Notes under the pieces: generated by a model
The model's database searches: none
What the model was told of the DNA's origin: nothing
What the model saw: the letters and a program-made list of their open reading frames with translations, nothing else
In this document: positions 1-36,576 of the stretch, in pieces
Layout: every line of letters starts with the position of its first letter
Numbering within the stretch: the stretch's first letter is position 1
Program-made: the position numbers and the translations under genes
Assembly (NCBI RefSeq): GCF_001570525.1
Contig: NZ_BBXC01000010.1
Coordinates: forward strand, 558,001 to 622,000
DNA: 64,000 bases
DNA from: Herbidospora sakaeratensis
Lineage (GTDB): Bacteria > Actinomycetota > Actinomycetes > Streptosporangiales > Streptosporangiaceae
Reading direction: 5' to 3'

Positions 1-335
1 GTCGGTCGGCCGGAGTCCTCGTCGAGAAGCCTGTCGTCCGGACCGATCACATCGGGCGGCAGATCGAGCGGCCAGTCCACGAGAGGCGTGGACCGGCACC
101 ACGACACCAGCTCGATGAGGCTCGCCGGTGGCGTGGCTCCCTTCACCAGGCAGGCGAGCACTGTGCGATCCAACGCCCGCTGTGCCTCCTCCGGGTAGGG
201 GAGCGTGAAGGCGGTCAGACCGGTCTTCTCGTTGAGCTGGAGCATCGCACTGGCCAGCGTGCGTACCAGAGGGACTCCCGCGTGCGTGGACCAGTCGGCG
301 GAGTGGGCCGGCAGCCCGGTCTGCTCAGACGTCAC
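1..335 (-). CDS. Unidentified protein, N-terminal 111 residues only (runs off left edge)
   Basis: An open minus-strand frame starts at a GTG at 335-333 and stays open to the window edge. The start overlaps the stop of the nuclease gene by four bases (GTGA), the usual sign of translational coupling, so both are probably one operon. The visible part has normal high-GC codon use and a tryptophan/proline-rich stretch (LVSWCRSTPLVDWPLDL) around residues 73-90. I do not recognise a family. Its position directly behind a PD-(D/E)XK nuclease in a defence island suggests a partner of that nuclease, but that is inference from context only. Confidence 0.6.
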   Translation of the reverse strand, partial: MTSEQTGLPAHSADWSTHAGVPLVRTLASAMLQLNEKTGLTAFTLPYPEEAQRALDRTVLACLVKGATPPASLIELVSWCRSTPLVDWPLDLPPDVIGPDDRLLDEDSGRP

Positions 336-1954
336 GATGAGATCTCCAGGGCGGGATCGGTCCCGGCCGGGCACCATCGGCGAACCTCACACTTCGCGCA
401 GTCCTTGCCGGGATCGGGTGTGTAGACCTCGTCGTCGGCCCATCCCGAAGCGAGGCCCGACACCACGTCGCGGGCCTGCTGGAGCGTGGCGGTGTCGAAG
501 GGGTCGATCTCCTCGCACGCCGCACCGTTCTCTCTGAGGATTTCGAGTTCGATCCGGGAACGGCGCGGCTCACCACCCAGAACGCCGGCGTTCATCAGCA
601 GGACGGCCAGGGCGAGCTGAGGGTGCCGCGACAGCAGGGGTTCACCCTCCCACGCTCGCTTCGAGGCGGTCTTGGTCTCCCGCCAGACCCAGCCACCGGC
701 ATCGGTGTAGAGGAGATCGGGATCCGCGATGACCACCACGTCGGCGACCGGGTCGTAGGCGGCCAGACGCCACTGGGGCCGGACGAGTTCCGTGGACGCA
801 AGCCGGTCGAGTGGGCAGATGGCCCGGTGTGCCCGGATCATCTTCAGGGCCGGCTCCCACTCGACCTCTGTCAAACCGGGGAGGCCACCGGGTATGGGGC
901 CGCTCCTGCAGGGGGTCCAGGGGTGCTGGCGGTGCCGTTCGGTCAGCCAGGCGTCGACCGCGCGACCCCGGCGGATCGCCTCGTTCTCGGTCTGCCCGTC
1001 TCGGATCATCAGCGTCCGAGTCAGATGGAAGCGCGCCGGGCATGAGTCGTAAATGCGCAGGTCGGAGGCCGAGAGGCTACGGCGCCGTCGGCCGCGGTGG
1101 GGAGCGGGGAGCCCAAGCAGGCCCGGGACCTCGGGCAAGGCGGTGCAGCCTGCGAGCCCGTCGCACCTGACACAGTCGCTTCCGGGCCGCAGATCCCGGC
1201 CGCCGAGTACGGCGGCGTAGCGATTCCTGGCGTGATCGGAGAACCGCTGTGCCGCCTCCTCTGCGGTCCAATCGGCGAGGGTCTCCGGCACGCCATCGCC
1301 GAGCCCTACGCCGATGACCCGCACTCGCTGGGGCGCGTCCGCCTCACCGCTGATCCGCTTGTATGGCTTTCCGAAGTCGGCGCGGGCCGGGACCCCGGTC
1401 GCCGCGATCGCGGCGACGGCCGCGATCTCCGCTTCGGGACGGTTCTTCTTGGCCGAGCGGATGGACGGAATCCAGATTTCCCGGATTGATCCGTCCTCAG
1501 TGGAATACCGTCTGCCCCATACGGTGCGTTCGTACTGCTTCACCCCTCGAACATCCGGCTCCCGCAACCGGTCGAGCCCCACCCATTCGGCGGCGACCGG
1601 GATGGTGGGCGGCTCTCCGGCGGCGGCGCGAGCGGCTTGGTGGTCCGCCCGCGCGGCGAGGTAGACCGGCACGACCTCAAGGGCCCAGATGCGATGCTGG
1701 GGGTGGCAGTTGCGGGTGTGCCGGAGATCGGCGAATGCGGCTTCCGGGCTGACGTTCCGGAACTCGATCGCGTCGAGCAGGTTCCCCACGGGCTGGAAGA
1801 AGAACTCCTGGAGCGGCCTTCTCCGGGAACGTTCCGGCTCCCGCTTCGTGAGCGGACGTGCCCGGAGCGCCCGACCGCCGGCGCAGGCGTCCGCTTCTTC
1901 GCGCAGCAGGGTGGTTCCGATCCTGACCACTTCTGATGGCAGTGGATGACTCAT
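332..1954 (-). CDS. PD-(D/E)XK nuclease of the RecB/Cas4/AddB type with cysteine clusters
   Basis: A protein of about 540 residues. The C-terminal half has the expected order of a Cas4/AddB-like nuclease: an isolated Cys (SCPARFHL, about residue 313 counted from an upstream in-frame ATG at 1978), an acidic motif (IADPDLLY, about 419), a WRETKTASK motif supplying the E and K of (D/E)xK (434-436), and a C-x2-C-x5-C cluster (527, 530, 536). Together these could bind an Fe-S cluster. The N-terminal half has a second C-x2-C-x5-C group (269-278) but no clear nuclease motif. I chose the ATG at 1954; a GTG three bases upstream is equally possible, and both follow a GGAGG. It is divergent from the Ser/Thr kinase and overlaps the next gene by four bases. 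A role in cutting foreign DNA is inferred. Confidence 0.75.
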   Translation of the reverse strand: MSHPLPSEVVRIGTTLLREEADACAGGRALRARPLTKREPERSRRRPLQEFFFQPVGNLLDAIEFRNVSPEAAFADLRHTRNCHPQHRIWALEVVPVYLAARADHQAARAAAGEPPTIPVAAEWVGLDRLREPDVRGVKQYERTVWGRRYSTEDGSIREIWIPSIRSAKKNRPEAEIAAVAAIAATGVPARADFGKPYKRISGEADAPQRVRVIGVGLGDGVPETLADWTAEEAAQRFSDHARNRYAAVLGGRDLRPGSDCVRCDGLAGCTALPEVPGLLGLPAPHRGRRRRSLSASDLRIYDSCPARFHLTRTLMIRDGQTENEAIRRGRAVDAWLTERHRQHPWTPCRSGPIPGGLPGLTEVEWEPALKMIRAHRAICPLDRLASTELVRPQWRLAAYDPVADVVVIADPDLLYTDAGGWVWRETKTASKRAWEGEPLLSRHPQLALAVLLMNAGVLGGEPRRSRIELEILRENGAACEEIDPFDTATLQQARDVVSGLASGWADDEVYTPDPGKDCAKCEVRRWCPAGTDPALEISS

Positions 1955-2077
1955 CACGGCTCGACCTCCATGGTCCAAGAGAAGCTCAATCTGTGAACTG
2001 AGTCAAGCGACTGCATTTATTATGTTGTGCACACGGTAAGGTGTGAATGCCATGGAGTGAGGCAGTGGGGGTTCGCG
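1955..2077. promoter_or_regulatory. Divergent promoter region between nuclease and kinase genes
   Basis: About 120 bases separate the two divergent starts, and the middle is unusually AT-rich for this genome (around 2012-2028). An inverted repeat CACAC-GGTAAG-GTGTG lies at 2030-2045, overlapping a short TGTGCACA palindrome. This could be an operator serving both genes. No convincing -35/-10 pair is claimed. Confidence 0.35.
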
Positions 2078-3541
2078 GTGCGGCTCGGCGAGGTGCTCGG
2101 CGGGAGATTCCGGATCACGGGTGGTCCGAAACGCGGTGGGATGGCGAGCGTGTGGCAGGCCGAGGACCTGCTCACAGGCGAAACCGTCGCGGTCAAGGTT
2201 CTCGGACGTGATCTGTGGGGCGACGATTCCGCCGCGCGCACCGGCCAGGTGGAGGCCTACGGCCGCTTCGAGCGGGAGCGTGACCTCATGGCGCGGTTAT
2301 CCGGCCTTGGTGTGCCCCGCCTGATCTTCCACAACTTCCTCGGCGGCGACCCCTACCTGGTCATGGAGCACGTCTCGGGCAAGAACCTGCGTGAGTTCCT
2401 TTCCAAGAACCGCCCGCCTGTCGTCGCGTCCGCCGCGATCGGCGTGCAACTCCTGGAGACTCTCTCCCAAGTTCACCGACTGGGGATAGTCCATCGAGAT
2501 CTGAAGCCGGCCAACGTGCTGCTCTCCGACGAGGGCCTCGTCTACCTCATCGATTTCGGGATCGCCCTGCCGACCGACCCCGACGCGACCCGGTACACCA
2601 AGCATGGGCCGACGCCTGGCAGCATCGGCTACAAGGCCCCCGAACTCATCCGGGGAGTCAAGCACCCGACGCCCGCAGCGGATCTGTACGGGTTCGCCTG
2701 CATGATGTTCGAGTTCGTCACCACCCGCCAAGTGTTCAGCGACCTTGCCGACCGGAGCATCGAGGATCAGCATCGCAACGATCCACCACCACGTCTCGAC
2801 CCGGTCAGGCACTCCATTCCGGTCGAGCTGGCCGACCTCGTGAACGCCATGCTGGTGAAGGATCCAGCGGATCGCCCGGGCGTGGACGCTGGGCTGGAGG
2901 TTCTGCGGGGGCTGCTGCCGAAGCCGGGTGACGCGGAGCCCTCCCCACGCCTGCACCCCGATCCTACTGCGATCTTCAGACAGGGACGGCCGGAGCGTGC
3001 CCCGGCCGTCCCCGCCGCACCGGCGGACCGCCGCCGCCCTGTCGTAAGGCGTCCGCCGAGGCCGAGCCGCAGCGAGTTCGCCAGGTTGCTGTCCGCCGCC
3101 GAACGTGAGATGGCCGTGAGCGAGCCAAGCTCCGAGACCCGGCAGGTCGTGGCGGAGTTGAATACGGTGACACAGGCGTGGGGCCCGGGCGACAAGCTGG
3201 TCGTCCGAGCCCAGTTGTGCTGCGCGGACTATGCGCGGATCGAGGGCGACTGGCCTGGAGCGGGTTCGCTGTACCGCACCGTCGAACGCACGCTCCGGAA
3301 CACCACGGAAGAGGAGGAGAAGGGGTTCCTCCTCGAAGCCCGGGTCGGCGTCGCCGAATGCACGCTGCCTGCGGACGACGACGTCACGGCTGCCTTCCGC
3401 ACCTGGCAGGACGTCGTCACCGAGGTGTGGGCCATGCCGCGGCCGCCTGTCCGGGTGGTTCGCCGCTGCCGTGAGTTCGCGGTGGAGCTGAGTGAACGTG
3501 GGTGCGCCGCAGAGGCCGAGGCACTGCCGGCCGACGAGTGA
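2078..3541 (+). CDS. Serine/threonine protein kinase, Hanks type (module 1)
   Basis: Soluble kinase of about 487 residues. The glycine-rich loop, VAVKVL lysine, HRDLKPANV catalytic loop, DFGIA and the APE-like KAPE are all present, so it should be active. After the kinase domain comes a Pro/Arg-rich linker, then about 150 helical residues that look TPR-like. No transmembrane or PASTA segments, unlike the housekeeping PknB type. The GTG at 2078 has a purine-rich stretch a few bases upstream; in-frame GTGs at 2027 and 2057 are alternatives. Its stop directly abuts the stop of the convergent methylase gene. A paralogous kinase sits beside a paralogous methylase at 16769, so the pairing appears functional. 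Substrate unknown. Confidence 0.85.
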   Translation: MRLGEVLGGRFRITGGPKRGGMASVWQAEDLLTGETVAVKVLGRDLWGDDSAARTGQVEAYGRFERERDLMARLSGLGVPRLIFHNFLGGDPYLVMEHVSGKNLREFLSKNRPPVVASAAIGVQLLETLSQVHRLGIVHRDLKPANVLLSDEGLVYLIDFGIALPTDPDATRYTKHGPTPGSIGYKAPELIRGVKHPTPAADLYGFACMMFEFVTTRQVFSDLADRSIEDQHRNDPPPRLDPVRHSIPVELADLVNAMLVKDPADRPGVDAGLEVLRGLLPKPGDAEPSPRLHPDPTAIFRQGRPERAPAVPAAPADRRRPVVRRPPRPSRSEFARLLSAAEREMAVSEPSSETRQVVAELNTVTQAWGPGDKLVVRAQLCCADYARIEGDWPGAGSLYRTVERTLRNTTEEEEKGFLLEARVGVAECTLPADDDVTAAFRTWQDVVTEVWAMPRPPVRVVRRCREFAVELSERGCAAEAEALPADE

Positions 3542-5530
3542 TCACGTCTGTTTCAGTCGCCCGGTGGCGAGCAGTTCGGTCAGCGTCAGGCTGAGCCCGG
3601 TGCTCGCCTCGCTCAGATCGGCGACCGTCTGTTCGAACGCCACCAGACGCCGGTGTACGTCTCCATAGCGGTGCTGTTCCTCGATGGGCAGGCGGGGAAT
3701 CTGGAGACGCCGAGGGTCGACCCGCGAGGTCGTTGATGCGTGCGATGCGGCCTGCCGCGCGTTGGAGTGCGCCCGCAGACACCCCGCCAGGAACCAGGGA
3801 TCGAGACGCCGGGTGTCGGGCCGCAGGCGGGTGAGATGCGAGGTCAACACGGTCGGCGCATCAACGTCGACCCATACCTTGAACTCGGCGGAGGGCGTGA
3901 CCAGGACCACGTCGTGAGAGGACGTCACCGTGATGGTTCTGTCACGTTCGAGACGTTCGACATCGTCGGGGAGCATCCATAGCTGCGGGGCTTGGCCCTC
4001 ACGTACATCGGCGAGAGTGAGGACCGGAACACCGCCGTCGGGTCGCTCTCCTCGTCGCATATAGTCGTCTGGAACTGGCTGCCCCGGGGTGAGCAGGAGG
4101 GCGCCGGCCCGCTCCAGTTCGGCGACCGCCACGGGGAGATCGTCCAAGGGTTCCCGATCTGCCTGGATATCGCGAAGGGTTGTGCTCAGATCGCGAGCGG
4201 CCTGAAGACCGGTATCAAAGCGAGTCCACTCCCGCCGCACCTGCATGGCCGACACGGCCAGGCTGGTCGGCACATGCCGCGCGGGTGTTAGGTCTGTCTC
4301 ATCGTCCAGCAAGTCGAGTAGCGGAATCTCAACGCTCCCCGCTGTCGGCAGGCCGCTCATCGCGCCCAGCACCCGGTCGCGCACAGCGTCCCAATCGACC
4401 GGCTGGCCGCGGAGGCTGGACGTGGTCGCCCGACAATCGGTGGCGTCCACCAGGAGGACGGGCTCGCCGACCCTGTCGGGTGACGATCGCCGCAGAACCC
4501 ACAACTGCATGCTGATCCCGAAGGGCGGTGCCGCACCGGGAGGAAGAGCGACCACTGCCCGCAGGCACCCGGCACGGAGCATCGCGGACCTGATCCGCCG
4601 CCCCGCCCGGCGTGATGCTACGGCGGGCGGCAGGAGAACGACGGCCACGCTGCCGTCGTCAAGCGCGGAGACGATGCGCTGGACCCACGCGAGTTCCGAC
4701 TCCGTACGCGGCGGAAGGCCGAACGGCCACGGCTGATCCGTTGCCAGCTCCTCGTGGCCCCAGTCGCGTTCATTGGTTGGCGGGCTGCAGAGGATCACAT
4801 CCGTCGTCGAAGGTGACTGGATGCCCTCGCGTAGCGCGTCGGCAGGCTTGATGTCGATCTCGGCTGAGGAGGTCTCAAGCGCGAGCCTGGTCGCCGCGAG
4901 CAGACTAAGGACGGGGTCTCGTTCCCGGCCGACCAGATATGGCGCTCCGCCCTGTGACCATCGTCGTGCGCCTGCCAGCAACAGGCCGCCGACCCCGCAG
5001 GCGGGATCGCACACTGTGGAGATCCGGCCGGGATGGGCTTGCGCCGCCATGTCGGCCATGAGCTCGGCGAGCGGAGCCGGTGTGGTGGTGACCTGCCGAA
5101 TATGGGTGTTCAGCCAGCGGTCCAGCAGGAATTGGAAAGTCTCCCGGCCGCCTTCGCCGGCGGCGAGCGCGATTGACTCTTCCACGAGCGCCTGGTCGGC
5201 GTCGCCCACCGTCGTCAGCCACTGGGATGCGGAATCCGGCCGGACATGAGCTCCTACTGCGGCGATAATCCGCCCCATTCGCTCGCGGTCGCCGAGCGCT
5301 TCGTACTTCGGCCAGAGCCGCTCCAGCACACCCGATGACGACCTGAACTTGTCGTTCTCGCGGAGCCAGGCTTCGACCTGCGGCAATGAGAACTGAGGGC
5401 TGGTGTCTGACCCGCCCACGGGGGAGGGAAAGGTGCTGTGCCGTCTGCGCCAATTGCTGACGGCGGCCCGGCCTACACCTGCGATGCGGGCGATCTCGGC
5501 GAGGGTCACCAGCACGTTTTGATCGTCCAC
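3542..5530 (-). CDS. N6-adenine DNA methylase fused to a specificity-like domain, N-terminal helix-turn-helix (module 1)
   Basis: 662 residues. Residues 6-60 form a helix-turn-helix (IARIAGVGRAAVSNWRRR). Residues 140-400 are a HsdM-like methyltransferase with SAM motif I DPACGVG (175-181). Motif IV reads SPPT (249-252), where active N6 methylases carry an aromatic residue after PP. The C-terminal third resembles an HsdS target-recognition domain ending in a conserved helix (PRLPIEEQHRYG). It is a paralogue of the protein at 14955-16754, with near-identical N-terminal spacing and motifs. No nuclease domain is present. The loss of the aromatic residue suggests weak or absent catalysis; it could instead bind DNA through its HTH or recognition domain. 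Start: GTG at 5530 with GGAAGG upstream. Confidence 0.8.
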   Translation of the reverse strand: MDDQNVLVTLAEIARIAGVGRAAVSNWRRRHSTFPSPVGGSDTSPQFSLPQVEAWLRENDKFRSSSGVLERLWPKYEALGDRERMGRIIAAVGAHVRPDSASQWLTTVGDADQALVEESIALAAGEGGRETFQFLLDRWLNTHIRQVTTTPAPLAELMADMAAQAHPGRISTVCDPACGVGGLLLAGARRWSQGGAPYLVGRERDPVLSLLAATRLALETSSAEIDIKPADALREGIQSPSTTDVILCSPPTNERDWGHEELATDQPWPFGLPPRTESELAWVQRIVSALDDGSVAVVLLPPAVASRRAGRRIRSAMLRAGCLRAVVALPPGAAPPFGISMQLWVLRRSSPDRVGEPVLLVDATDCRATTSSLRGQPVDWDAVRDRVLGAMSGLPTAGSVEIPLLDLLDDETDLTPARHVPTSLAVSAMQVRREWTRFDTGLQAARDLSTTLRDIQADREPLDDLPVAVAELERAGALLLTPGQPVPDDYMRRGERPDGGVPVLTLADVREGQAPQLWMLPDDVERLERDRTITVTSSHDVVLVTPSAEFKVWVDVDAPTVLTSHLTRLRPDTRRLDPWFLAGCLRAHSNARQAASHASTTSRVDPRRLQIPRLPIEEQHRYGDVHRRLVAFEQTVADLSEASTGLSLTLTELLATGRLKQT

Positions 5531-5757
5531 GAGACCCAGCCTTCCAGATAGGCCGCAGAAGGGCCAAGCAGCAGTGTTGTTGACGCAGTTTTCATCCTAC
5601 CCATCGATGGCCGCTGTTAACACCTGCATTCGATATTTTGTTCGAAAAATTGAGCCCCGATGAACCCGGAAGTCGGTGGTGAGGGCCACCGTTCAGGCGG
5701 CAAGGTCCCGACGTAGATGATGTCGCTGGTTGCGACGTACAGGCGCCATCTAGCCAG

Positions 5758-6107
5758 TCACGGGTGGGTGAGCCAGAGGGCGAGGTCGGCGAAGTAGCCG
5801 TCTCCCGAGCCGATGGCGACCCGCTCGAAGCGGAGGTCAACGTGGTCGTCAACGGCTATCTGGACCAGTGCGCTGCGGATGAGGATCTGGGGCGCCGTGG
5901 ATCACTTGGCCCACCTCCTGCGGTGAGCGGGGGTGGACGCCACGACGAAATGGTCGTGGGTCGACCAGCACCTGTCGCAGGTAGTCGGACATGGTATCCG
6001 CGATCTGCGCCGCCGTTGGTGACGGCGAGGCGGGTCAGATTCTCGATATCCGGTGAGCGGATTGCCTCCTTCTGCGGCGTCTCGCTGTTCCTGTGCCGTT
6101 TCGCCAC
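5758..6107 (-). pseudogene. Small unknown gene broken by two frameshifts
   Basis: No intact ORF covers this stretch, but a consistent minus-strand protein can be read across three frames. It starts with VAKRHRNSETPQKEA from a GTG at 6107, shifts near 6015 into AAQIADTMSDYLRQV, and shifts again inside a CCCC run near 5894 into QILIRSALVQIAVDD, ending FADLALWLTHP at 5758. The reconstructed product is about 115 residues. Removing one C from the CCCC run repairs the second shift. I do not recognise the family. It may be a decayed gene or reflect sequencing errors. Confidence 0.45.
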
Positions 6108-6361
6108 TGCGGGCCTGTGAGGCTGTGAACCGTGTATGCAAGTACGTTGGCGACCGCGTATGCAGCGCTCCCTGCTGTGAGGACTCTTTCAGATTATCTT
6201 CATACGCAATCCGATGCTGTGCTTAGATTGCTGATGTTGCGCTGTGGTTCAGCCAGTTCGTCGGAGCCCGTGCAGTGCGAGGTTTGAGAACGCACCACGT
6301 ATCCACTTGCTTGCGAGGGTGGTGCGACGGATCGAACATTCACGACAGAGAGGACATCCCG
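6108..6361. other. Intergenic, no gene recognised
   Basis: This stretch, with the short gap 5531-5757 on the other side of the pseudogene, contains only low-quality overlapping ORFs with poor codon bias. It is locally AT-rich near 6190-6240. Nothing else is supported. Confidence 0.4.
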
Positions 6362-6580
6362 TTGCGGAGAAGTGTCCGCGTCCATCATGGCCGCCCGCGT
6401 CCGACGTGGGCCAGAAGGTTCGGCCGCGCGGTCGTTGTGATCGTTGGTCTGATCACGATCGGAGCTTCGGCCTGGTGCCGCACGTCTGAGTTTCTCTTCG
6501 CGTTGTGCACGGCCGTGGTCGGCGTGCTGCTCGAAGAGGCTGTGCGTGTGGCGCTTCGCGGTCAATCGCATCCCGCATAG
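6362..6580 (+). CDS. Putative small membrane protein with two hydrophobic segments
   Basis: A 72-residue ORF starting at a TTG preceded by GAGAGGA at a seven-base spacing, which decides this start over a GTG at 6275. A basic N-terminus (RRSVRVHHGRPRPTWARR) is followed by two hydrophobic stretches (AVVVIVGLITIGASA and FLFALCTAVVGVLL) and a short charged tail. It lies 87 bases upstream of the restriction operon on the same strand. Small two-helix membrane proteins are common toxic effectors in defence loci, but nothing beyond topology supports that here. It may also be a chance ORF. Confidence 0.4.
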   Translation: MRRSVRVHHGRPRPTWARRFGRAVVVIVGLITIGASAWCRTSEFLFALCTAVVGVLLEEAVRVALRGQSHPA

Positions 6581-6667
6581 CGAGAAGTAGCACGGCGGAG
6601 GAGGTGGGCCGGAGAGTTCCGTGCATCTCCTCCGCCTGGACCCTTGAGGCGATTAACGAGGTGAACG

Positions 6668-7255
6668 GTGAGCACTGATGTCAGCATCCCGTTGGGGGCT
6701 CTTTGCGATGTCGCCGCAGGGCCTTCGGGATCACTGCTGGAGCGTCTCAGTGTGCGCGTTGATGGGGTGCCCGTTCTCTCGCCGGCCAATGTTACGGACC
6801 GGCACGAGATCATGCTGGAAGGCCTGCGACGGTTGCCTCGGAAGGACGCGGCTCGGTTGACGCGGTTCTTGCTTCGCCCGCAAGACGTACTTTTCGTGAG
6901 GCAGGGAGCGCTAGGCAGAAGCGCCGTTGTAGGGCCAGAGCAGGATGGTTGGCTGTACGGTCCGGCTTGCCTGCGCTTGCGTCTGCGATCGAGTGAGGTC
7001 ATGCCTGACTATCTGGCCCTCTATCTATCGCATCCGCCGATCGTGGCCAGGCTGATGGGGCAGGCGTCTCCTGGGACGGTTCTATGGGCCCATACTCACG
7101 AACTCCGGCAGTTGCTGGTCGCGGTGCCGTCGCTCCAGGAGCAGGCCAGGACGGTGAAGCTTGTACGCGCGATCGATGCCCGCATCACAATCGAGAGAGC
7201 GCTTGTGTCCAAGCTGGAGGAGTTCGCGGTCGGCATTATGGACGATCTTCTGTGA
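6668..7255 (+). CDS. Type I restriction specificity-like protein with a single target-recognition domain
   Basis: 195 residues, about half of a normal HsdS. It contains one recognition domain with typical signature pieces (RFLLRPQDVLFVRQGALGR, GWLYGPACLRLRL) and one distal helical repeat (VPSLQEQARTVKLVRAID ... LVSKLEEFAVGIMDDLL). It starts at a GTG preceded by GAGG. It is the first gene of the R-M operon, 143 bases ahead of hsdM, while a full two-domain HsdS follows hsdM. Half-size S proteins can dimerise to give palindromic recognition, so this could be an alternative specificity subunit, or it could serve the motif-poor methylases nearby. Confidence 0.75.
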   Translation: MSTDVSIPLGALCDVAAGPSGSLLERLSVRVDGVPVLSPANVTDRHEIMLEGLRRLPRKDAARLTRFLLRPQDVLFVRQGALGRSAVVGPEQDGWLYGPACLRLRLRSSEVMPDYLALYLSHPPIVARLMGQASPGTVLWAHTHELRQLLVAVPSLQEQARTVKLVRAIDARITIERALVSKLEEFAVGIMDDLL

Positions 7256-7398
7256 GTCGCGTACACAATATTATTCGCCGTTGCTGGTGACACGGCTCGA
7301 CGGTAGCGTGTGGCCTGCTGCTAGGCGGAAGGGCTGCCCGTGCGCTTCCAAAGCGCTGTGTAAGTCGGTCGAAGGATGAAGAAAGAAGGAGTCGCCAC

Positions 7399-9843: not shown

Positions 9844-11047
9844 CCTTCCACACGGCTGGCTGCGAGTCTTTTTGAAAGAAGTCACCGAGGAGCGGATGGA
9901 AAAAGTCGGCGCCCGTAAATCTATTACAGTTCTATCTTCGACCAAACATCACGGGCTCGTCCCGTCTGTCGAATATTTCAAGGGTCGCACCATTTATAGT
10001 GACGACCTTGCAAATTATAAGATCGTTAGACGTGGATGGTTTGCCTATGCAACCAATCATCTGGCCGAAGGATCTATTGGACTTCAGGAGAAACTTGAGG
10101 AGGCTTGCGTAAGCCCCATTTACACTGTGTTTTCGACCGGTGTGGGCGTAGATCCTTCATTTATGTTTCGAGCGCTTAAATCTCCGCGGCTCCTGGCCTC
10201 ATATGCAGTGCATGAACAGGCTTCGGTTGATCGTCGAGGTGCGATCCGTTATAAAGACTTCGGGAAAATTGAGATCGATCTCCCGTCTGAATGTGAACAG
10301 CGGCGGATCGCGGATATTCTCAACACTCTTGACCGGCGCGTTACTTCTATCGACCTGTCATTGGATAAGTTCACACTCATTCATGTCGGGCTGATTGACT
10401 ATCTATTGTCGTCTGTCGTTGCCGGGGAAACTCCGCTGAGGGTGCATCTGGCTCAGTCGCCCAAGAACGGGTATTCCCCTAAAGAGGTTGAGGGGTGGAC
10501 CGGTCTCCTTGCGCTGGGTCTCGGATGCCTCACATCCGGTGGCTTCCAGGCCCGTCAACTAAAAAACGTTCCCATGCGCGATGGGCGCAACAGATCGGCG
10601 CTCCTGTCGGATGGCGATCTGCTGATGAGTCGTGCAAATACGAGAGACCTCGTCGGGCTTGCGGGTATTTACAGCGGTGTCGGGGTGCCGTGTATCTATC
10701 CAGATCTCATCATGAAACTCAGCCCGGGTGGGACGTGCAGGGCTGAATATTTGGAGCTTCAACTGAGGAGCCATGGCCTTCGGCGCCAGATACAGGCGAT
10801 CGCACAGGGTACATCCGAAAGCATGGTAAAGATCAGCGGGTCATCGGTGCAAGATCTTATGGTCCGTATTCCATCGCTCGAAGAACAAGACCGCGTCCTG
10901 GGGGTCGCTCATGCGAGCAAGGCCGCTATCAGGCGCCTTGAAGAGGAGCGGAACCGCCTTCAGCTCCTCAAGCGAGGTCTCATGGAAGACCTGCTGACTG
11001 GCCGAGTTCGTGTAGCGCAGGCGGAAGCCATACTGGAAAGTCTTTGA
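9836..11047 (+). CDS. hsdS: Type I restriction-modification specificity subunit
   Basis: 403 residues with two target-recognition domains, each followed by a helical spacer ([19 protein letters not shown] near 158-176; [16 protein letters not shown] near 347-362), the standard HsdS layout. It sets the DNA sequence recognised by HsdM and HsdR. The first half (about 9870-10400) is clearly more AT-rich than hsdM and hsdR and uses codons rare in this genome, such as TTA/ATA-type third positions. This points to separate acquisition or recombination of the recognition domain, which is usual in hsdS genes. It overlaps the end of hsdM by eight bases. Confidence 0.93.
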
Positions 11048-11075
11048 TTGTGCATTTAGCGAGGGGAGTCGGCCG

Positions 11076-14000
11076 GTGACCGACTACGAATACGCACTCG
11101 TCGAGAAGCCGTTCATCGATCAGCTCGTCTCCATGGGGTGGCACCACCTTCAGGGCGCCACCCCCGAAGCCGTCATCCCGCTCAACCCCCGCATGTCCGA
11201 CCGCCGCACCTTCGACGAGACCATCCTCGAAGACCGGCTCCGTGACGCCATCGAGAAGATCAACGGCTCCTGGCTCGATGACCGCAAGCTCAGTCAGGCT
11301 GTCAACGCCCTCACGCGAATTCCCACGACCAATCTCCTCGAAGCCAACAAGAAGGTCACCGAGCTCCTCGTCAACGGCATCCCGGTCGACGACCCGGCGA
11401 CGGGCAAGTCGAGGATCGTGCACTACGTCGACTGGAAGACTCCAGAGAACAACGACTTCCTGGTCGTCAACCAGTTCAGGGTCGACATTCCGGGCACGGG
11501 CGGCCACAAGCAGATCGTCCCGGACATCGTGCTGTTCGTGAACGGCATTCCGCTGGTCGTCGTGGAGTGTAAGAAGACCACGGAGAGTGGCCTCGGCAAG
11601 GCGGTCGGCCAGATCCGGAAATACCGCGACAGCCGCACCGGCCTGTTCCGCCCGGTCCAGATGACGATCGCGACCAGCGGTGAAGACGCCAGGCTCGGCA
11701 CGTTCACCGCCAAGCTCGAACACTACGTGCCCTGGCGAGACCCGTACCCGCTGACGAAAGCGGCGTTAGCCGCGAAGCTCGACAAGGCCGAGGAGCAGCT
11801 CAGCAAACAGGAAGTCCTCGTCGCGGGTGTGCTGGAGCCGGTCAACCTGCTTAACATCGTCCACAACTTCGTCACGTTCATGACCACCGACGACGGCGTC
11901 AACATCAAGGCGGCGCCGCGCTACCAGCAGTTCCGCGCCGTCGAGCGGACCGTCGAACGGTTACGCACCGGCAAGCCGGGACAGCGGGGCGGCATCGTCT
12001 GGCACACCCAGGGCTCGGGCAAGAGCCTCACGATGACCTTCCTGGTCAGGCGGCTGCGCTCACTCAACGCGCTGTCGCATTACAAGGTCGTCGTGGTCAC
12101 CGACCGCACCCAGCTCCAGACCCAGCTCAGCGAGACGATGGCGCTGAGCAACGAGAAGGTCGACGTCGCCAGAAACACCGCCCGCGCCCGGACGCTGCTC
12201 GGCAAGACGGGCCCCGGCCTGGTCTTCGTGATGATCCAGAAGAACCAGAGTGGCCAGCCGACAGACCGCATGGAACTGGGCGAGATCAACACCGACGACT
12301 CGATCGTGGTCCTGATCGACGAGGTGCACCGCTCCCACACCGCCGCGCTGGGCGCCAACCTGCGGCAGGCGATGCCGAACGCGGCCCGGATCGGCTTCAC
12401 CGGCACCCCGATCATGACGAAGAAGGGCCGGCGCGACACCAGCGTCGAGCTGTTCGGCCCGTTCATCGACACCTACCGGCTCCGCGAGGCGGAGGAGGAC
12501 CAGGTGATCGTGCCCATCCTCTACGAAGGCATCAAGGTCAAGGGCGCGCTCCAGGACGGCCAGGACATGGACGACCTCTTCGAAGAGGAGTTCGAGGAGC
12601 TGACCGACGAGGAACGCCGCACCCTCCAGACCCGCTGGGCGACCAAGGGCAACGTGTCGGCGGCCCGCAAACTGGTCGACGTCAAGGCCAAGCACATGCT
12701 GCGCCACTACGTCGACAAGGTGCTCCCCGAAGGCTTCAAGGCGCAGGTCGTGGCCCATGACCGGGAGACGACCGTGCGCTACCGGGAAGCTCTCATGGAG
12801 GCGCGCGACGAGCTCGTCCGAGACATCGAGAAGCTACCGGCCCACTTGCTCGACCGGGATCCGGCGGAGCTGCGGCCGCGCCAGGCCCAGTTGGTCAAGG
12901 CGGCCAGGCAGCTCGACCTGCTGAAGCGGATCGACTTCGTACCGGTGATCTCGAAGGGCGACACCGAGCACGAGAACCGCTACGAGGAGTGGACCGACGA
13001 GGCCAGGCAGAAGACCCGGATCGAGGGCTTCGTCAGGCCGTTCGGTGAGAACGACATCGCGTTCGTCATCGTGAAGTCGATGCTGCTCACCGGCTTCGAC
13101 GCACCGATCGAGCAGGTGATGTACCTCGACCGGAAACTGGAGATGCACGACCTGCTCCAGGCCGTCGCCCGGGTCAACCGCACAGCCGACAACAAGCCGT
13201 TCGGCTACGTCGTCGACTATCGGGGCGTCGCGCAGAACCTCGTGGACGCGCTGAGGGTCTACGCCGACGAGGAGTTCGAGGCAGGCGAGGCCGCCGACGT
13301 CTCCGGCGCGCTGCGTGACCTGAAGACCGAGATCGCCAAGCTGGAGCCGCGCTGCCGTCGGCTCCGGACCATGTTCCGCGACTACACCGACATCGAGGGC
13401 TGCGTCCAGGAACTGGCCGACCCGGAGTTGCGTGACCGATTCGGTGTCGAGCTGGCCCGCTTCGTCCGGACGGTCAACACGGTGCTGCCCGAACCGGCGG
13501 CCTCGCCCTACCTGGCGGACGCCAAGCACTTCTCGGTCATCCGGCTCACCGCCGGTCGCCGCTACCGCGTTGACGGCGGCGAGTTCGATCCCGGTGCGTA
13601 CGGGCAGAAGATCAAGTTATTGATCGACGAACACGTGACCTCACTCGGCGTCGAGCAGCAGTTGCCACCGATCGCACTGACGGCGGCCAACTTCGCCGCC
13701 AAGGTCGAGGCGATGACCGGCGGCTCCCGGGCGAAGGCGTCGGAGATGGAGAACGCCCTGCGCCACCACATCACCGTCAATGCTGGCCAGGACCCGGCCC
13801 GCTACCAACTGCTGAGCGAGCGGCTCGAACAGATCCTCGTCGAGCTGAAGGACGACTGGGACGCCCAGTTGCTCGCGTTCAAGGACCTGATCGCCGAGGT
13901 GGTCGACGACGGGCGCGACAACCCCCACGGGTTCAGCCCGGCCGAGTTCGCCCTCTACGGCCTGCTCCTGCAGGAGTTCGCGACCTCTGACGATGACGTA

Positions 14001-14228
14001 CACGACCCGAAGTTCGTCGACACCGCCAGGGCGATCATCCGGCTCGCGAGCGGCACCATCCACCGGCACGGATTCTGGGACAAACGGCCCGACGTCGCCG
14101 ACTTCCGCAACGAGATCTTCGAGGTCCTGGTGGCCGCCGACCTCGATGACATCGCCCGGCTGGAGACGGTGGCCGACAAAGCGCGCGATGCGGTCAGGGA
14201 GAACCGCGTGACCATTCCCAGGGCCTAA
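11076..14228 (+). CDS. hsdR: Type I restriction endonuclease subunit R
   Basis: 1050 residues. The N-terminal PD-(D/E)XK nuclease has PDIVLF (about 148) and VVECKK (about 162-167). A superfamily 2 translocase follows, with Walker A HTQGSGKS (about 310), DEVH (about 414) and the GFTGTP motif, then the C-terminal helicase lobe (LLTGFDAP, AVARVNR) and a helical domain. All key residues are present, so it should translocate DNA with ATP and cut at a distance. It begins 28 bases after hsdS at a GTG preceded by GAGGGGAG, in the same operon. Confidence 0.95.
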   Translation: MTDYEYALVEKPFIDQLVSMGWHHLQGATPEAVIPLNPRMSDRRTFDETILEDRLRDAIEKINGSWLDDRKLSQAVNALTRIPTTNLLEANKKVTELLVNGIPVDDPATGKSRIVHYVDWKTPENNDFLVVNQFRVDIPGTGGHKQIVPDIVLFVNGIPLVVVECKKTTESGLGKAVGQIRKYRDSRTGLFRPVQMTIATSGEDARLGTFTAKLEHYVPWRDPYPLTKAALAAKLDKAEEQLSKQEVLVAGVLEPVNLLNIVHNFVTFMTTDDGVNIKAAPRYQQFRAVERTVERLRTGKPGQRGGIVWHTQGSGKSLTMTFLVRRLRSLNALSHYKVVVVTDRTQLQTQLSETMALSNEKVDVARNTARARTLLGKTGPGLVFVMIQKNQSGQPTDRMELGEINTDDSIVVLIDEVHRSHTAALGANLRQAMPNAARIGFTGTPIMTKKGRRDTSVELFGPFIDTYRLREAEEDQVIVPILYEGIKVKGALQDGQDMDDLFEEEFEELTDEERRTLQTRWATKGNVSAARKLVDVKAKHMLRHYVDKVLPEGFKAQVVAHDRETTVRYREALMEARDELVRDIEKLPAHLLDRDPAELRPRQAQLVKAARQLDLLKRIDFVPVISKGDTEHENRYEEWTDEARQKTRIEGFVRPFGENDIAFVIVKSMLLTGFDAPIEQVMYLDRKLEMHDLLQAVARVNRTADNKPFGYVVDYRGVAQNLVDALRVYADEEFEAGEAADVSGALRDLKTEIAKLEPRCRRLRTMFRDYTDIEGCVQELADPELRDRFGVELARFVRTVNTVLPEPAASPYLADAKHFSVIRLTAGRRYRVDGGEFDPGAYGQKIKLLIDEHVTSLGVEQQLPPIALTAANFAAKVEAMTGGSRAKASEMENALRHHITVNAGQDPARYQLLSERLEQILVELKDDWDAQLLAFKDLIAEVVDDGRDNPHGFSPAEFALYGLLLQEFATSDDDVHDPKFVDTARAIIRLASGTIHRHGFWDKRPDVADFRNEIFEVLVAADLDDIARLETVADKARDAVRENRVTIPRA

Positions 14229-14235
14229 CCCTGGC

Positions 14236-14952
14236 ATGCTGATGACCGTGAGTGATATACCCGGCGTCCTGCGCGTCGGCGACCTTGAGGTCGCCGTCTC
14301 GGTGAGCGACCGGCGCAAGAGCGTCCGTCTGACCGTCGAGCGAGACTCCTCCATCACCGCGGTCGTGCCCTCACAGGTGTCGAAGGCCGAACTGGTCAAG
14401 ATGGTGGAGGCCAAGCGGCCGTGGCTGTACGGAAAGCTGGCCGAGAAGCGTGACCTGGGCCGTGCGGCCCCGGCCAAGGAATATGTCACCGGCGAGGGCT
14501 TCCGTTACCTGGGGCGGTCCCATCGGCTTCGGGTGGTCGACGAGGGCGAGGTGCGGCTGATCCGGGGGAGGCTGGAGCTGCCCCGGGGCGGGGGCGCCAG
14601 GGAACTGGTCGGCTGGTATAGGCGGGTGGGGGAGCCCTGGCTGGCCAAGCGGGTGCGGCCATGGGCCGACCGCCTCGGAGTCGAGCCGAGTGGGCTGACG
14701 GTCCGGCCGCTCGGCTACCGGTGGGGGTCGTGTTCGCGCGGCGGCCGGGTGAACATCCACTGGGCGGCCATGCAGCTGCCGCCCAGTCTGATCGACTACG
14801 TGCTCGTCCATGAGCTCGCGCATCTGCGCCAGCCAGATCACAGCGCCGCGTTCTGGGAGATCGTCGAGCGGGCGATGCCGCTTCACGACGGCTACCGTGA
14901 CCGGCTCCGCCGTACTGGAAATGATCTGTGGTTGCCGGAGGAGGGGCGCTAG
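14236..14952 (+). CDS. YgjP-like (DUF45) zinc metallopeptidase-fold protein
   Basis: 238 residues. The C-terminal part has the HELAH zinc motif (about 191-195) followed by the family's RLRR end, and GYRWGSC upstream, the signature of the YgjP/DUF45 (M48-related) family. These genes are often found inside type I restriction loci, though their role there is not settled. It begins seven bases after hsdR and ends two bases before the next methylase. ATGs at 14236 and 14242 and a GTG at 14248 are all possible starts; none has a strong ribosome binding site, which suggests coupling to hsdR. Confidence 0.85.
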   Translation: MLMTVSDIPGVLRVGDLEVAVSVSDRRKSVRLTVERDSSITAVVPSQVSKAELVKMVEAKRPWLYGKLAEKRDLGRAAPAKEYVTGEGFRYLGRSHRLRVVDEGEVRLIRGRLELPRGGGARELVGWYRRVGEPWLAKRVRPWADRLGVEPSGLTVRPLGYRWGSCSRGGRVNIHWAAMQLPPSLIDYVLVHELAHLRQPDHSAAFWEIVERAMPLHDGYRDRLRRTGNDLWLPEEGR

Positions 14953-14954
14953 AC

Positions 14955-16754
14955 ATGTCAGAGGACGTTCTGGTCAGCGCCGCCGACATCGCCCGGCTGG
15001 CAGACGTCGGCCGTGCTGCGGTGAGCAACTGGCGCAAGCGGTTCGACGACTTCCCGCAGCCTGCGGGTGGGACCGCCTCCAGCCCGGCCTTTCTGCTGGC
15101 CGATGTCGAATGCTGGTTGCGGGCCCATGACCGATATGTCGAGGTGTCGCCGCTGGAGCGGCTCTGGCAGCGGCTGCGCAGCAGCACCGACGATCTGCGG
15201 CTCGGCGAGGTGGTGGCCGACACCGGCGCCGTGCTCCTGGGTGAGAAGACCGAGCTCGACCTGGCCCTGGTGGCGGAGATAGAACGCGTCGGGCAGGCCG
15301 ATGGGGTGCTCGCGGCCTTCGACGGGATCTGTGGACGCTACGCCGACCTGCATTCGCGCCGACTGCTCGCCACACCGTTGCCGGTGGCGCGACTGATGGC
15401 CGCGATCGGCTCTGTCGCCGGTGGCACCGTGCTGGATCCGGCGTGCGGGACTGGCACCCTCCTCCTGGCCTCACACGGTGGTGCGGTGTACGGCCAGGAG
15501 ATGAACGATGGCTTTTCCCGGCTGACGGACATCCGACTCCGGCTTCACGGCTATCAGGCGCGTGTTGAGGTGGGTGACTCCCTCCGGTCCGACGCCTTCG
15601 GCGGGATACAGTTCGACGCTGTTGTCTGTAGCCCGCCGTTCAGCGAGCGGAACTGGGGATACGACGAACTGGCGAGTGATCCCCGCTGGGAGTTCGGGTT
15701 GCCGCCGAGGGGCGAGTCCGAGCTTGCCTGGGTGCAGCACTGCCTGGCCCACGTCCGGCCCGGTGGGCATGCTGTGGTCATGATGCCCGCCGCTGCCACC
15801 AGTCGGAGGCCGGGGCGGAGAGTGCGCGGAAACCTGCTCCGCGCGGGTGTGCTGCGCGCGATCATCAGCCTGTTCCCTGGCGCCGCCCCCGCCTCCAGTG
15901 CGGCGCCCGACCTGTGGGTCCTACGCCAGCCGGCCGACGCCGACGAACCCCCCTCCGATGTGCTGATGGTCGGCGCGGGCGAAGATCTGGGCCTGGCAGA
16001 GACGGCGTGGCGGGCCTACAACGCCAAGACGGAACTGCCGGAGAACAGCCGGGTCGTGCGGATCATCGATCTGCTCGACGAGGAGATCGACCTGACGACG
16101 AGCCACCGGACCGTCGTCCAGGAGCCGTCAGCGGGGTACTTCACGATGCGCGACCGGTTGGCCTCGGTCGTGGAGCGGCTGACGGTCCCGGGGGTCGTCG
16201 GAGGGCCGCGTCGGGAGCCCGTCATGACCACGCTCGGCGAGCTGACCCGGGCCGGTGTCGTCGCCGTTCTCCAGGGTCCGCTGAATCTGGCCGACGACGG
16301 TGAGCTGCCCGTGCTGACGGCCAAGGACTTCATGCACAACCGGGAGCCGACCGGCCGTACCGGAGAGTCCGCCGGGCTGGTGCGGGTGGTCGAGGGCGAT
16401 GTCGTCGCCTCGCTGCTTGCGGCCAGTGGCCCGATGCCGACGGTGATGACGACCGCGGGTGCGGTGCTCGGGCCCCAACTGCTGCTTTTCCGCGCTGACC
16501 CCGACCGGCTCGACCCCCACTTCCTGGCCGGTTGCCTGCGGGCCGAATCCGGGCGTGCCGGTTCGGGCGTGCGGCTCGACCCGCGCCGGGCGTCACTGCC
16601 GAGACTGCCGATCGGAGAACAGCGCCGCTATGGCAGGGCCTTCGCCGATCTGCTCGCCCTTGAGGAAACGACAAGATCGCTGATCAAGATCAGCGATAGC
16701 CTGGTCGCCGCCGGTATCGGCGGGCTCCTCGACGGGAGCCTGATACCCGAATGA
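14955..16754 (+). CDS. N6-adenine DNA methylase fused to a specificity-like domain, N-terminal helix-turn-helix (module 2)
   Basis: 599 residues with the same architecture as the protein at 3542-5530: helix-turn-helix (IARLADVGRAAVSNWRKR, about 12-29), methylase domain with motif I DPACGTG (about 161) and motif IV SPPF (226-229), then an HsdS-like recognition region ending LPRLPIGEQRRYG. Here motif IV keeps the aromatic residue, so this copy is probably catalytic. The ATG at 14955 follows GGAGGAGGGG; the frame also extends upstream to 14928 inside the preceding gene, which I reject as the start. It overlaps the kinase gene's upstream ATG by four bases. A self-contained modification enzyme with its own specificity and no nuclease partner in the same chain. 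Confidence 0.85.
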   Translation: MSEDVLVSAADIARLADVGRAAVSNWRKRFDDFPQPAGGTASSPAFLLADVECWLRAHDRYVEVSPLERLWQRLRSSTDDLRLGEVVADTGAVLLGEKTELDLALVAEIERVGQADGVLAAFDGICGRYADLHSRRLLATPLPVARLMAAIGSVAGGTVLDPACGTGTLLLASHGGAVYGQEMNDGFSRLTDIRLRLHGYQARVEVGDSLRSDAFGGIQFDAVVCSPPFSERNWGYDELASDPRWEFGLPPRGESELAWVQHCLAHVRPGGHAVVMMPAAATSRRPGRRVRGNLLRAGVLRAIISLFPGAAPASSAAPDLWVLRQPADADEPPSDVLMVGAGEDLGLAETAWRAYNAKTELPENSRVVRIIDLLDEEIDLTTSHRTVVQEPSAGYFTMRDRLASVVERLTVPGVVGGPRREPVMTTLGELTRAGVVAVLQGPLNLADDGELPVLTAKDFMHNREPTGRTGESAGLVRVVEGDVVASLLAASGPMPTVMTTAGAVLGPQLLLFRADPDRLDPHFLAGCLRAESGRAGSGVRLDPRRASLPRLPIGEQRRYGRAFADLLALEETTRSLIKISDSLVAAGIGGLLDGSLIPE

Positions 16755-16768
16755 CCCAGGAGGCTGTC

Positions 16769-18196
16769 GTGCCCGACTTCCTTGGCCGCTACCGCCTTGA
16801 TCCGATCAGGCTCGGCCGGGGCGGCATGGGCGAGGTGTGGGGCGCGACGGACACTCGCCTTGATCGGCGCGTCGCCATCAAGTACGTGCTGCTCCCTGAC
16901 ACCGAACTCAACCAGCGTTTCATCCGGGAGGCCCGGGCGCTGTCGAAGCTGACCCATCCCGGCGTGCCGGCGCTGTATGACTTCGGTCGTGACGCCGATC
17001 GCCACTACATGATCATGCAATTCATCGACGGTAACACGCTGCGGGATGTCGTCGCCGAACACGCGCCGCTGCCGATCGGCTGGGTGGCATCCATCGGCGC
17101 CCAGATCGCGGCGGTCCTGCACGCCGCTCATTCCCACGGAATCCTGCATCGCGACCTGAAGCCGTCGAATCTCATACTCGGCCGAGACGGCTCGGTGAGC
17201 GTGTTGGACTTCGGGCTGGCGTTCCTGCACGACGCCGACACGGTCGAGCTCACCACGACGGGCCACCAACTCGGCACCGCCGCCTACATGTCTCCGGAGC
17301 AGGTCGAGGCCAAGCCCGCCTCTGAGAAGACCGACGTCTACGCCCTCGGCTGTGTTCTGTACGAAATCGCCACTGGTCTACCGCTTTTCACTGGCCCAGG
17401 CGACCACAGTGTCAAAACGCAGCACGTTACGACCCCGGCTACCCCGGCAGGTCGGTACCGCGCCGACATGCCGAGAGGACTCGACGAGCTTCTGCTGGCC
17501 ATGGTGGAGAAAAACCCGGCCGACCGGCCCCGCGGCATGCGTGAGGTCCACGAAGGCTTGATGCCCTACCTGTCGGGAACCAGCCGACTCGGCGACATGA
17601 CGGAGAACTCCCCGAGCCCGCTCACTCTCTATGCACAGGCTGTCAGCAGGACCGTCGCCGGGTCGGCCTCTGGAACGGCGCCGCCTGCCGAGGCGCGCCC
17701 TGCCGACTTCCACCGCACCAGACGCGACGCCCGATCCTTGATCCGGGACTCCCGATATGGTGAGGCTGTCGAACTCCTGAACGAGGCACTGGCTCGCACG
17801 CCTGACGCCCACGACCTGCGGGAACAGCTCGCCGAAGGCTACTTCTCCGCACACGACTATGAGCGGGCCGCCCGCGAATACCGGCGCCTCGCCGACGTCG
17901 GCGAGGCGGAGCAAGCCTTCCACCATCGGCTCCAGGAAGCGGTCTGCCACGTCCACCTCGGGCAACTCGACTCGGCGCTCGACCTGATGGTCGCTCTGCT
18001 GGCCGACACTCAGTCGGAAGACAACCCTCAGGCGCTTGAACTCCGGCGCCATATAGGCGAACTCGAGCGCGACGCCGGTCACCGGGATCGGGCTCGGCGC
18101 ACGTTCACCGGCCTCCTCGCCGATCTACGCCGAATCTTCGGCGAGGAGCACCCCGCCACGGACCGAGTGCGGCAACTGCTTGGCGCAATTGCATAA
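16769..18196 (+). CDS. Serine/threonine protein kinase with TPR-like C-terminus (module 2)
   Basis: About 475 residues. The glycine loop GRGGMGEVW, VAIKYV lysine, HRDLKPSNL, DFGLA and SPEQ motifs are intact. After the kinase domain (about 1-265) comes a linker and then tetratricopeptide-like repeats (for example EAVELLNEALARTPDAHDL, YERAAREYRRLADVGEAEQ), likely a protein-binding arm. The GTG at 16769 follows AGGAGG at five bases and is preferred over the ATG at 16751 that overlaps the methylase stop. It is the last gene of the operon. Its natural substrate may be the adjacent methylase or the Hsd subunits; that is inference from gene order. Confidence 0.88.
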   Translation: MPDFLGRYRLDPIRLGRGGMGEVWGATDTRLDRRVAIKYVLLPDTELNQRFIREARALSKLTHPGVPALYDFGRDADRHYMIMQFIDGNTLRDVVAEHAPLPIGWVASIGAQIAAVLHAAHSHGILHRDLKPSNLILGRDGSVSVLDFGLAFLHDADTVELTTTGHQLGTAAYMSPEQVEAKPASEKTDVYALGCVLYEIATGLPLFTGPGDHSVKTQHVTTPATPAGRYRADMPRGLDELLLAMVEKNPADRPRGMREVHEGLMPYLSGTSRLGDMTENSPSPLTLYAQAVSRTVAGSASGTAPPAEARPADFHRTRRDARSLIRDSRYGEAVELLNEALARTPDAHDLREQLAEGYFSAHDYERAAREYRRLADVGEAEQAFHHRLQEAVCHVHLGQLDSALDLMVALLADTQSEDNPQALELRRHIGELERDAGHRDRARRTFTGLLADLRRIFGEEHPATDRVRQLLGAIA

Positions 18197-19863: not shown

Positions 19864-19910
19864 TGGTGGGGCGCCAGGGATTCGAACCCTGAACCTACGG
19901 ATTAAAAGTC
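19864..19910. other. Likely island attachment site at tRNA 3' end
   Basis: The 3' half of tRNA-Lys (T-arm and acceptor, with an encoded CCA at 19866-19864) faces the integrase gene. This is the expected crossover region. I found no second copy of this segment to the left within the window, so the other end of the island is outside it. The exact core length cannot be read from one copy. Confidence 0.5.
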
Positions 19911-36497: not shown

Positions 36498-36576
36498 TGA
36501 ATTCCCCCAGATCTTCACCGTCCGGCGTCGTGGCCCGAGTCAACACGGACCGTGACCCGACGCCGGACCGGTTGAC

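Follow-up and report, generated by a model that had tools for sequence, protein, structure and literature searches.

A recurrent HTH-methylase and Ser/Thr kinase gene pair as candidate controller of a type I restriction-modification operon and a pPIWI-RE system on one tRNA-Lys island of Herbidospora sakaeratensis

In the restriction-modification (R-M) systems of M.SsoII and M.Ecl18kI, the N-terminal region of the methylase regulates its own system (PMC6100179, PMC3978073, PMC3695355; these and the sources below are cited for the portions of their text available to us), and M.SsoII binds its regulatory site as a dimer (PMC6100179). Elsewhere, a dedicated regulator, RptR, and a palindromic site control a type I R-M island (PMC12255303), the CapK/CapS kinase and DNA-binding repressor control adjacent immune operons (PMC13373217), and BREX type 2, or Pgl, known from Streptomyces, joins a kinase and an adenine methylase in a defence locus (PMC12839542). 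The pPIWI-RE system is a triad of a restriction endonuclease (REase), a DinG-like helicase and the pPIWI-RE protein, described in the available portions of the source without an associated methylase (Burroughs 2013, PMC3702460). Here we analyze a 64,000-nucleotide stretch (the window) of contig 10 of the actinobacterium Herbidospora sakaeratensis (GCF_001570525.1, NZ_BBXC01000010.1, positions 558,001 to 622,000), which contains part of a tRNA-Lys island of about 35.2 kb (contig 10: 542,696-577,864). Two systems of the restriction type lie on this island, a type I R-M operon and a pPIWI-RE system, and each is accompanied by a separate gene pair encoding a helix-turn-helix (HTH) methylase and a Ser/Thr kinase. 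From the gene content, the fixed order across genomes, the co-inheritance and the promoter sites that follow the pair, we propose that the HTH-methylase is an M.SsoII-like self-regulator with the kinase as its switch, one two-gene module per system, a reading to which we give a probability of roughly 0.6.

By its defining genes, the right-hand system is a genuine type I R-M operon: HsdM (7399..9843, + strand; Pfam N6_Mtase 322.6 bits and HsdM_N 97.1 bits; PADLOC MTase_I E 2.4e-290), HsdS, probably with two target recognition domains (TRDs) and very variable among orthologous operons (9836..11047, +; PADLOC Specificity_I E 1.2e-51; Methylase_S 22.9 bits, just over the Pfam cut-off of 22), and HsdR (11076..14228, +; TIGR00348 453.8 bits, cut-off 284.55) occur together, with HsdM_N, N6_Mtase and TIGR00348 all over their cut-offs. 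They are followed by a YgjP-like zinc peptidase (14236..14952, +; PF01863 173.4 bits), an HTH-methylase with a C-terminal HsdS-like half (14928..16754, +; N6_Mtase 105.2 bits), and a Ser/Thr kinase with a TPR domain (16751..18196, +; Pkinase E 4.3e-45, TPR_19 E 4.2e-7), whose start at 16751 overlaps the stop of the methylase gene; we call the latter two the type I branch of the pair. Since none of the overlaps in this six-gene run exceeds 25 bp and none of its gaps 28 bp, a single operon is well supported. The first-pass annotation of this DNA had drawn a continuous plus-strand operon that also took in an upstream half-HsdS open reading frame (ORF) with a single TRD (6668..7255, +; PADLOC Specificity_I E 4.4e-27). 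The run from hsdM to the kinase stands, but the half-HsdS ends 143 bp before hsdM and an operator-like site (7251-7267) overlaps its stop codon; hence, it need not belong to the operon. A relative of this spare half-HsdS (230 bits) lies upstream of hsdM in one other genome (L133), and it could donate TRDs. As ygjP also occurs in hsdMSR loci lacking the pair, we reject it as part of a special module.

The left-hand genes belong to the second system, which the window cuts through, as three more pPIWI-RE genes lie just beyond its edge on the strand of the window's first nuclease gene: those for a pPIWI_RE_Y/REase protein, a DinG-like helicase with a pPIWI_RE_Z domain, and the pPIWI-RE protein. 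Their profile scores (pPIWI_RE_X 377, RNaseH_pPIWI_RE 278, pPIWI_RE_Z 173, pPIWI_RE_Y 173 and pPIWI_RE_REase 136 bits) are all over the cut-off, PprDinG reaches 899 bits, and the fixed order of REase, DinG-like helicase and pPIWI-RE is present; thus, judged again by the defining genes, this is a genuine pPIWI-RE system. The nuclease inside the window (332..1978, -; Pfam PDDEXK_1) had been read as Cas4-like, an identity that we reject since it scores 14.8 bits against Cas4 versus 475 bits (E 7.8e-143) against PADLOC PprPDDEXK; it is the fourth pPIWI-RE gene. Divergent from it across a 48-bp gap is a Ser/Thr kinase gene (2027..3541, +; Pfam Pkinase E 1.6e-32), whose product carries a C-terminal helical-repeat domain with seven helices beyond the kinase domain in the structural model. 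This in turn converges with the gene for a second HTH-methylase with a C-terminal HsdS-like half (3542..5530, -; N6_Mtase 94.2 bits), the two constituting the pPIWI-RE branch of the pair. In its order and domains the triad is like the described three-gene system (PMC3702460), from which the locus differs in the addition of the PDDEXK nuclease (already a Ppr model in PADLOC), the kinase and the HTH-methylase in a fixed layout.

All genes named in the first-pass annotation are present near the places it gave, yet its view of them as one compound system did not hold up: the left nuclease, kinase and methylase travel with pPIWI-RE, and the right pair with hsdMSR. The left trio accompanies pPIWI-RE in 13 other loci with no hsd match in the fetched flanks (about 9 kb per side where the contig was long enough), and R-M operons bearing the pair are found with no Ppr gene in the flanking sequence fetched; hence, we reject a single system. 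The second kinase/methylase pair that had been placed beside the R-M operon exists, but goes with the PprPDDEXK nuclease and pPIWI-RE. Against a clean separation, six genomes other than our own (G284, G127, G203, G178, G206 and G099) contain a type I operon with the pair as well as the six-gene pPIWI-RE layout, in G203 both on one 48-kb contig, where 0.76 would be expected among 296 genomes (P 2e-5, uncorrected for relatedness). Such co-occurrence above expectation makes cooperation between the two systems possible.

The pair is not unique to this genome. HsdM matches were recovered from 88 of 297 genomes of the family, and among the best 34 loci after the window's own, the full six-gene order recurs in 14 (L132-L141, L144-L146, L150), with a further two (L147, L148) having the kinase after ygjP and a convergent methylase. 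In all, 16 of these loci have both pair genes, one has the kinase only (L143), 15 have neither, and two end before hsdR (L152, L155); the status of L151, L156 and L161 comes from additional fetched sequence. Loci with the kinase encode an HsdM 69-85% identical to that of the window; where the kinase is missing, the figure is 77% for L142 and at most 68% elsewhere. The simplest reading of these identities is that the pair was acquired once in this R-M lineage. On the pPIWI-RE side, PprPDDEXK was found in 78 of 297 family genomes, and from these 46 loci were sampled, the best 20 after our own and 26 picked further down the list. The pPIWI-RE triad is present in 26 of them, counting L109, where a contig end lies beside the triad; in 21 of the 26 a kinase diverges from the nuclease, and 13 have all three of nuclease, kinase and HTH-methylase as the window does, 12 with kinase and methylase convergent and one in tandem (L105). 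The contig of L098 ends after the kinase and that of L092 about 1.2 kb after it, where no methylase call is possible. The 20 loci without a recognizable triad were left out of the layout count; six of these (among the triad-less loci are L112, L115 and L117) have an HTH-methylase and two more a kinase in the fetched flanks.

A search seeded with an alignment of the four HTH-methylases of the genome gave 572 relatives, of which the best 80 were fetched: a kinase lies directly downstream in 63 of these loci, against a chance level of about 0.011. The five nearest relatives, from Thermoactinospora, two Nonomuraea, Planomonospora and Acrocarpospora, share the six genes and their order, though four of these five loci are probably the same records as loci among the 34 hsdM loci. 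In two more (L082, L076), HTH-methylase, HsdM, an HsdS-like ORF (recognized by eye), HsdR and kinase occur together; since their HsdM scores only about 100 bits against the window's, this looks like an independent association of the pair. The co-occurrence of kinase and methylase with hsdMSR thus extends to distantly related operons. The operon of L076 (15265-21105) also includes an Mrr nuclease, and the locus encodes a 606-residue protein matching nothing in Pfam or NCBIfam. Most of the 80 loci have no hsd or Ppr gene in the fetched flanks, and the kinase domains match PD-T4-6 models, which share the general kinase fold; both observations would suit an independent defence or addiction unit, PD-T4-6-like in its kinase, that merely accumulates beside defence genes. 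We consider this improbable, as the order is fixed, genes overlap, divergence is matched, each partner has its separate methylase lineage, and sites occur in the partners' own promoters. The locus of the genome's own stand-alone pair (L011) is 91.7% identical over 6.9 kb to the H. cretacea locus L056; the idea that stand-alone pairs occupy a conserved argS-lysA-hom core locus was dropped, as lysA/hom neighbours (named by eye) were found in four of 80 loci.

Within the type I operons, HsdM, HsdR, YgjP, HTH-methylase and kinase diverge together while HsdS varies independently. Over 14 operons, HsdR identity correlates with that of the HTH-methylase (r=0.95) and of the kinase (r=0.91), with none of 2000 Mantel permutations as high, versus r=-0.08 (p 0.74) for HsdS; L137 was dropped because a wrong kinase ORF had been taken, and with it included the kinase correlates at 0.55-0.68 with the other four proteins. 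Between L132 and L133, HsdR is 97%, the methylase 98% and the kinase 98% identical, against 30% for HsdS, whose median identity across orthologous operons is 31% where that of HsdM is 80%. By these comparisons the pair follows the cutting machinery and not the specificity subunit. This bears on an alternative of direct, Pgl-like switching of HsdR/HsdM or the pPIWI-RE nucleases by the kinase, with the HTH-methylase acting as an additional, self-marking modification enzyme. The co-inheritance of kinase and HsdR (r=0.91), the occurrence of kinases without a same-strand methylase (L143, L147, L148) and the intact kinase active sites (HRDLKPxN in 17 of 17 type I-branch kinases; no variation at the catalytic K, HRDxKPxN and DxG among 16 aligned pPIWI-RE-branch rows) speak for it. 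We nevertheless regard it as unlikely: the methylase is inherited independently of HsdS, which disfavours a second self-marking specificity, the motif IV aromatic residue is gone from 12 of 14 pPIWI-RE-branch methylases, and the promoter sites fit transcriptional control. The TRD of the type I-branch methylase diverges slightly faster than its catalytic domain (median identity 0.66 versus 0.75).

In adenine methylases, loss of the aromatic residue of motif IV is expected to abolish catalysis. The window's right HTH-methylase reads SPPF at this position and its left one SPPT; as the S-adenosylmethionine (AdoMet) motif of the latter is intact, it is probably a pseudo-methylase, judged from these motifs. 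Across 14 pPIWI-RE-branch methylases, motif IV is SPPT (6), NPPT (2), NPPF (2), NVPT, SLPA, DLPA or VPPS, the second HTH-methylase of L099 being excluded from the tally, and the AdoMet motif is intact in this branch. In the type I branch NPPF is found in 14 of 15, the window's SPPF being the exception, and xPPF is kept in all 39 stand-alone relatives. In a FastTree tree whose long branches were flagged by the program, the pPIWI-RE-branch HTH-methylases, with the window's among the 14 rows, form one clade (support 100), and those of the type I operons need two changes because L129, a methylase beside a nuclease, falls inside them. The model of the type I HTH-methylase (mean pLDDT 87.7) places HTH, helical linker, methylase, TRD and a long C-terminal helix in that order; the closest solved chain is 7eew_A, an intact Vibrio vulnificus methylase, at a TM-score of 0.37 (a loose overall fit), followed by PacII M1M2S chains. 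The single-TRD half-HsdS within it suggests a dimer.

The genome encodes a fourth HTH-methylase on contig 12 (L010:8297-19266) with a DPPM motif and a shortened TRD, tail-to-tail with genes that read by eye like those for a helicase, McrC, McrB and a large N6 methylase. As for the kinases, a short tail follows the kinase domain in P0002, P0010 and P0018 (PDPTxxFR, SPLTLYA and APTRMYAR, respectively); this tail is kept in most of the 16 aligned rows of the first kinase kind and is perhaps a docking or autophosphorylation motif.

Palindromic operator-like sites, approximately TGTGAACT-N-AGTTCACA, lie in the hsdM promoter, in the divergent promoter between nuclease and kinase and, more weakly, before the HTH-methylase genes, and in both systems they follow the presence of the pair. 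The type I form, TGTG-N9-CACA, was read by eye from an alignment of hsdM upstream regions; its copy in the hsdM promoter region (7251..7267) is the only exact one in the window, and eight copies occur in 611,715 bp of hsdM loci, all at most 350 bp upstream of hsdM and in kinase-positive loci only. At p<0.01, a weight matrix recovers a site in 15 of the 16 hsdM promoters of methylase-positive loci and also in L143, in none of 15 pair-negative loci and in neither of the 2 undecided ones (L152, L155); 8 of 9 kinase-positive loci outside the training set pass. Methylase genes inside type I operons have it in 0 of 14 cases, as expected for internal genes. For the stand-alone pair of this genome, a site lies 71 bp before the methylase gene (L011:5094), and 9 of 39 stand-alone relatives pass p<0.01, most others having a weaker variant at a similar distance. 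In the pPIWI-RE branch, the divergent promoter between nuclease and kinase holds the variant TGTGAACTnAGTCAAGC, and a further one precedes the methylase gene. The window's palindrome in the 48-bp gap, TGTGAACTGAGTCAAGC (1992..2008, no strand assigned), is the best match to the consensus in 80 kb, and that about 48 bp upstream of the left HTH-methylase (5578..5594, likewise unstranded) cannot be told by score from a chance-level match at 36529. A divergent-promoter site of at least 12/16 is present in 14 of 14 loci that have the window's kinase and methylase layout (L098 counted), and one of at least 13/16 in 12 of 14, versus 0 of 12 others; in a consensus-free test, 8 of 9 distant relatives had a site of at least 13/17, against none of the 12 loci lacking that methylase.

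Several points weigh against reading these sites as operators of the pair. The type I site was picked by eye, its middle 9 bp are variable and its left arm overlaps the half-HsdS stop; the window's own sequence, when used in the consensus-free test, failed to pick it out, and in L150 it is visible only with a relaxed pattern. The pPIWI-RE consensus was written after some sites had been seen, and a pattern fitted to the site at 1992 has one zero-mismatch match in the 8.6-Mb genome, at window 1992 itself, but three with one mismatch, as many as its reversed control. The sites are more alike than their flanks (0.62, 0.78 and 0.80 versus 0.30, 0.31 and 0.28), a difference inflated by their having been picked as best matches. 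Thirty of 39 stand-alone pairs lack a site at p<0.01. The pair-negative loci are mostly more distant relatives, with L142 (same genus, HsdM 77%, no pair, best score p=0.04) the one close control, and L143 has kinase and site with no methylase found there. Further, the kinase-like genes of nuclease loci L092, L093, L104 and L109 do not match the catalytic-motif pattern. The HTH is seen in both sequence and model of the HTH-methylase and its cognate site by computation alone; recognition of the site by the HTH, as opposed to the TRD or a host factor, is an assumption, and operator binding, methylation and phosphorylation are all predictions from sequence.

Nevertheless, the fixed linkage, the independence from HsdS, the sites that follow the pair, and the degraded motif IV alongside an intact HTH and AdoMet motif together point to the HTH-methylase as the likely controller of each system. 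We envisage that the N-terminal HTH of a methylase dimer would bind the promoter sites and set the expression of its own operon, in a role akin to that of the C proteins, or of M.SsoII, in type II R-M systems; such control would allow a mobile island to become established in a new host without lethal effect. The kinase, which probably uses its TPR domain as a sensor, might then phosphorylate the HTH-methylase or the effector, such that restriction is released or armed. The type I-branch methylase still has a plausible catalytic motif, while that of the pPIWI-RE branch seems to have been turned into an AdoMet-binding regulator devoid of methylation activity. That the kinase is the switch of the HTH-methylase is the least supported step; it is probable, and CapK/CapS offers a precedent for a kinase acting on the repressor of immune operons. 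The phosphorylation-controlled restriction or modification suggested in the first-pass annotation is hence possible, with the sequence evidence pointing first to transcriptional control by the HTH-methylase. We would go a step further, with odds slightly short of even, and picture the pair as a general plug-in "phospho-epigenetic" controller of actinomycetes, a self-regulating DNA methylase with a DNA-binding state set by the kinase, that was adopted independently by unrelated effectors (hsdMSR-ygjP, other hsdMSR and pPIWI-RE) and became a catalytically dead AdoMet sensor in the pPIWI-RE lineage.

Each of the described systems differs from this proposed arrangement. M.SsoII and M.Ecl18kI are cytosine-5 methylases of type II systems, whereas the HTH-methylases here are N6-type (Pfam N6_Mtase), HsdM/HsdS-like proteins tied to a type I partner, to pPIWI-RE and to a kinase. 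RptR is a small repressor that binds TAGCTA, and the abstract of its description mentions no methylase-type regulator or kinase (PMC12255303); CapK resembles anti-sigma kinases and CapS STAS-domain antagonists, which are other families (PMC13373217). We reject BREX type 2/Pgl: PglZ (PF08665), whose absence from the island the first-pass annotation had supposed, is lacking from the whole genome, and the PglW matches (NF033442) are partial and low-scoring, at 32.0 and 65.8 bits versus a cut-off of 990. MADS, as far as the available portions of PMC12904381 go, likewise combines HTH, methylase, specificity and kinase components, and a reduced MADS-like defence would equate these domains with MAD1, MAD2, MAD5 and MAD6, to which weak profile matches do occur in the right regions. 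However, the NCBIfam cut-offs for MAD2 (15.8/720 for the HTH-methylase, 58.9/720 for HsdM), MAD6 (155.3/460 for the kinase) and MAD5 (29.5/400 for the half-HsdS) are all missed and no further MADS model is among the NCBIfam matches; hence, membership in MADS is not supported, and we consider this the least probable of the alternatives. The combination has no entry in the Pfam, PADLOC and NCBIfam scans, which hold protein models and not system rules, and is not described among the matches listed in the literature searched, a coverage that mostly excludes subscription papers. Thus, the effectors are known ones with a shared controller pair, in a wiring not found described in the catalogues and literature searched. 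The available portions of PMC3702460 and PMC10991935 do not state the trigger of pPIWI-RE systems, for which a kinase and an HTH-(pseudo)methylase before the nuclease operon offer a concrete handle. If our proposal is correct, methylase-type transcriptional control of a type I R-M system, inherited with the cutting machinery and not the specificity, would represent a novel mode of regulation and would help account for the movement of such islands between hosts.

The island itself is inserted at tRNA-Lys(ttt) (19864..19938, -), the 3' part of which is repeated over 48 bp at 98% identity at the island's left end (contig 10: 542,696, outside the window). A tyrosine integrase gene (18281..19675, -; Phage_integrase E 2.1e-15, Pfam) lies next to the tRNA. 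In two of six same-genus genomes (G149, G163) the site is empty, the left flank being directly joined to tRNA-Lys and the right flank; in these genomes the left flank has further matches elsewhere, less identical than the contiguous ones, which are the best. In the remaining four the site is occupied or not resolved. This tRNA-Lys looks like a hot spot for islands, since its att core recurs upstream of it, on our contig 10 and in relatives (G083:C8, G109:C26), and the integrase has relatives (657 and 711 bits) close to other PprPDDEXK/kinase loci (L109, L124).

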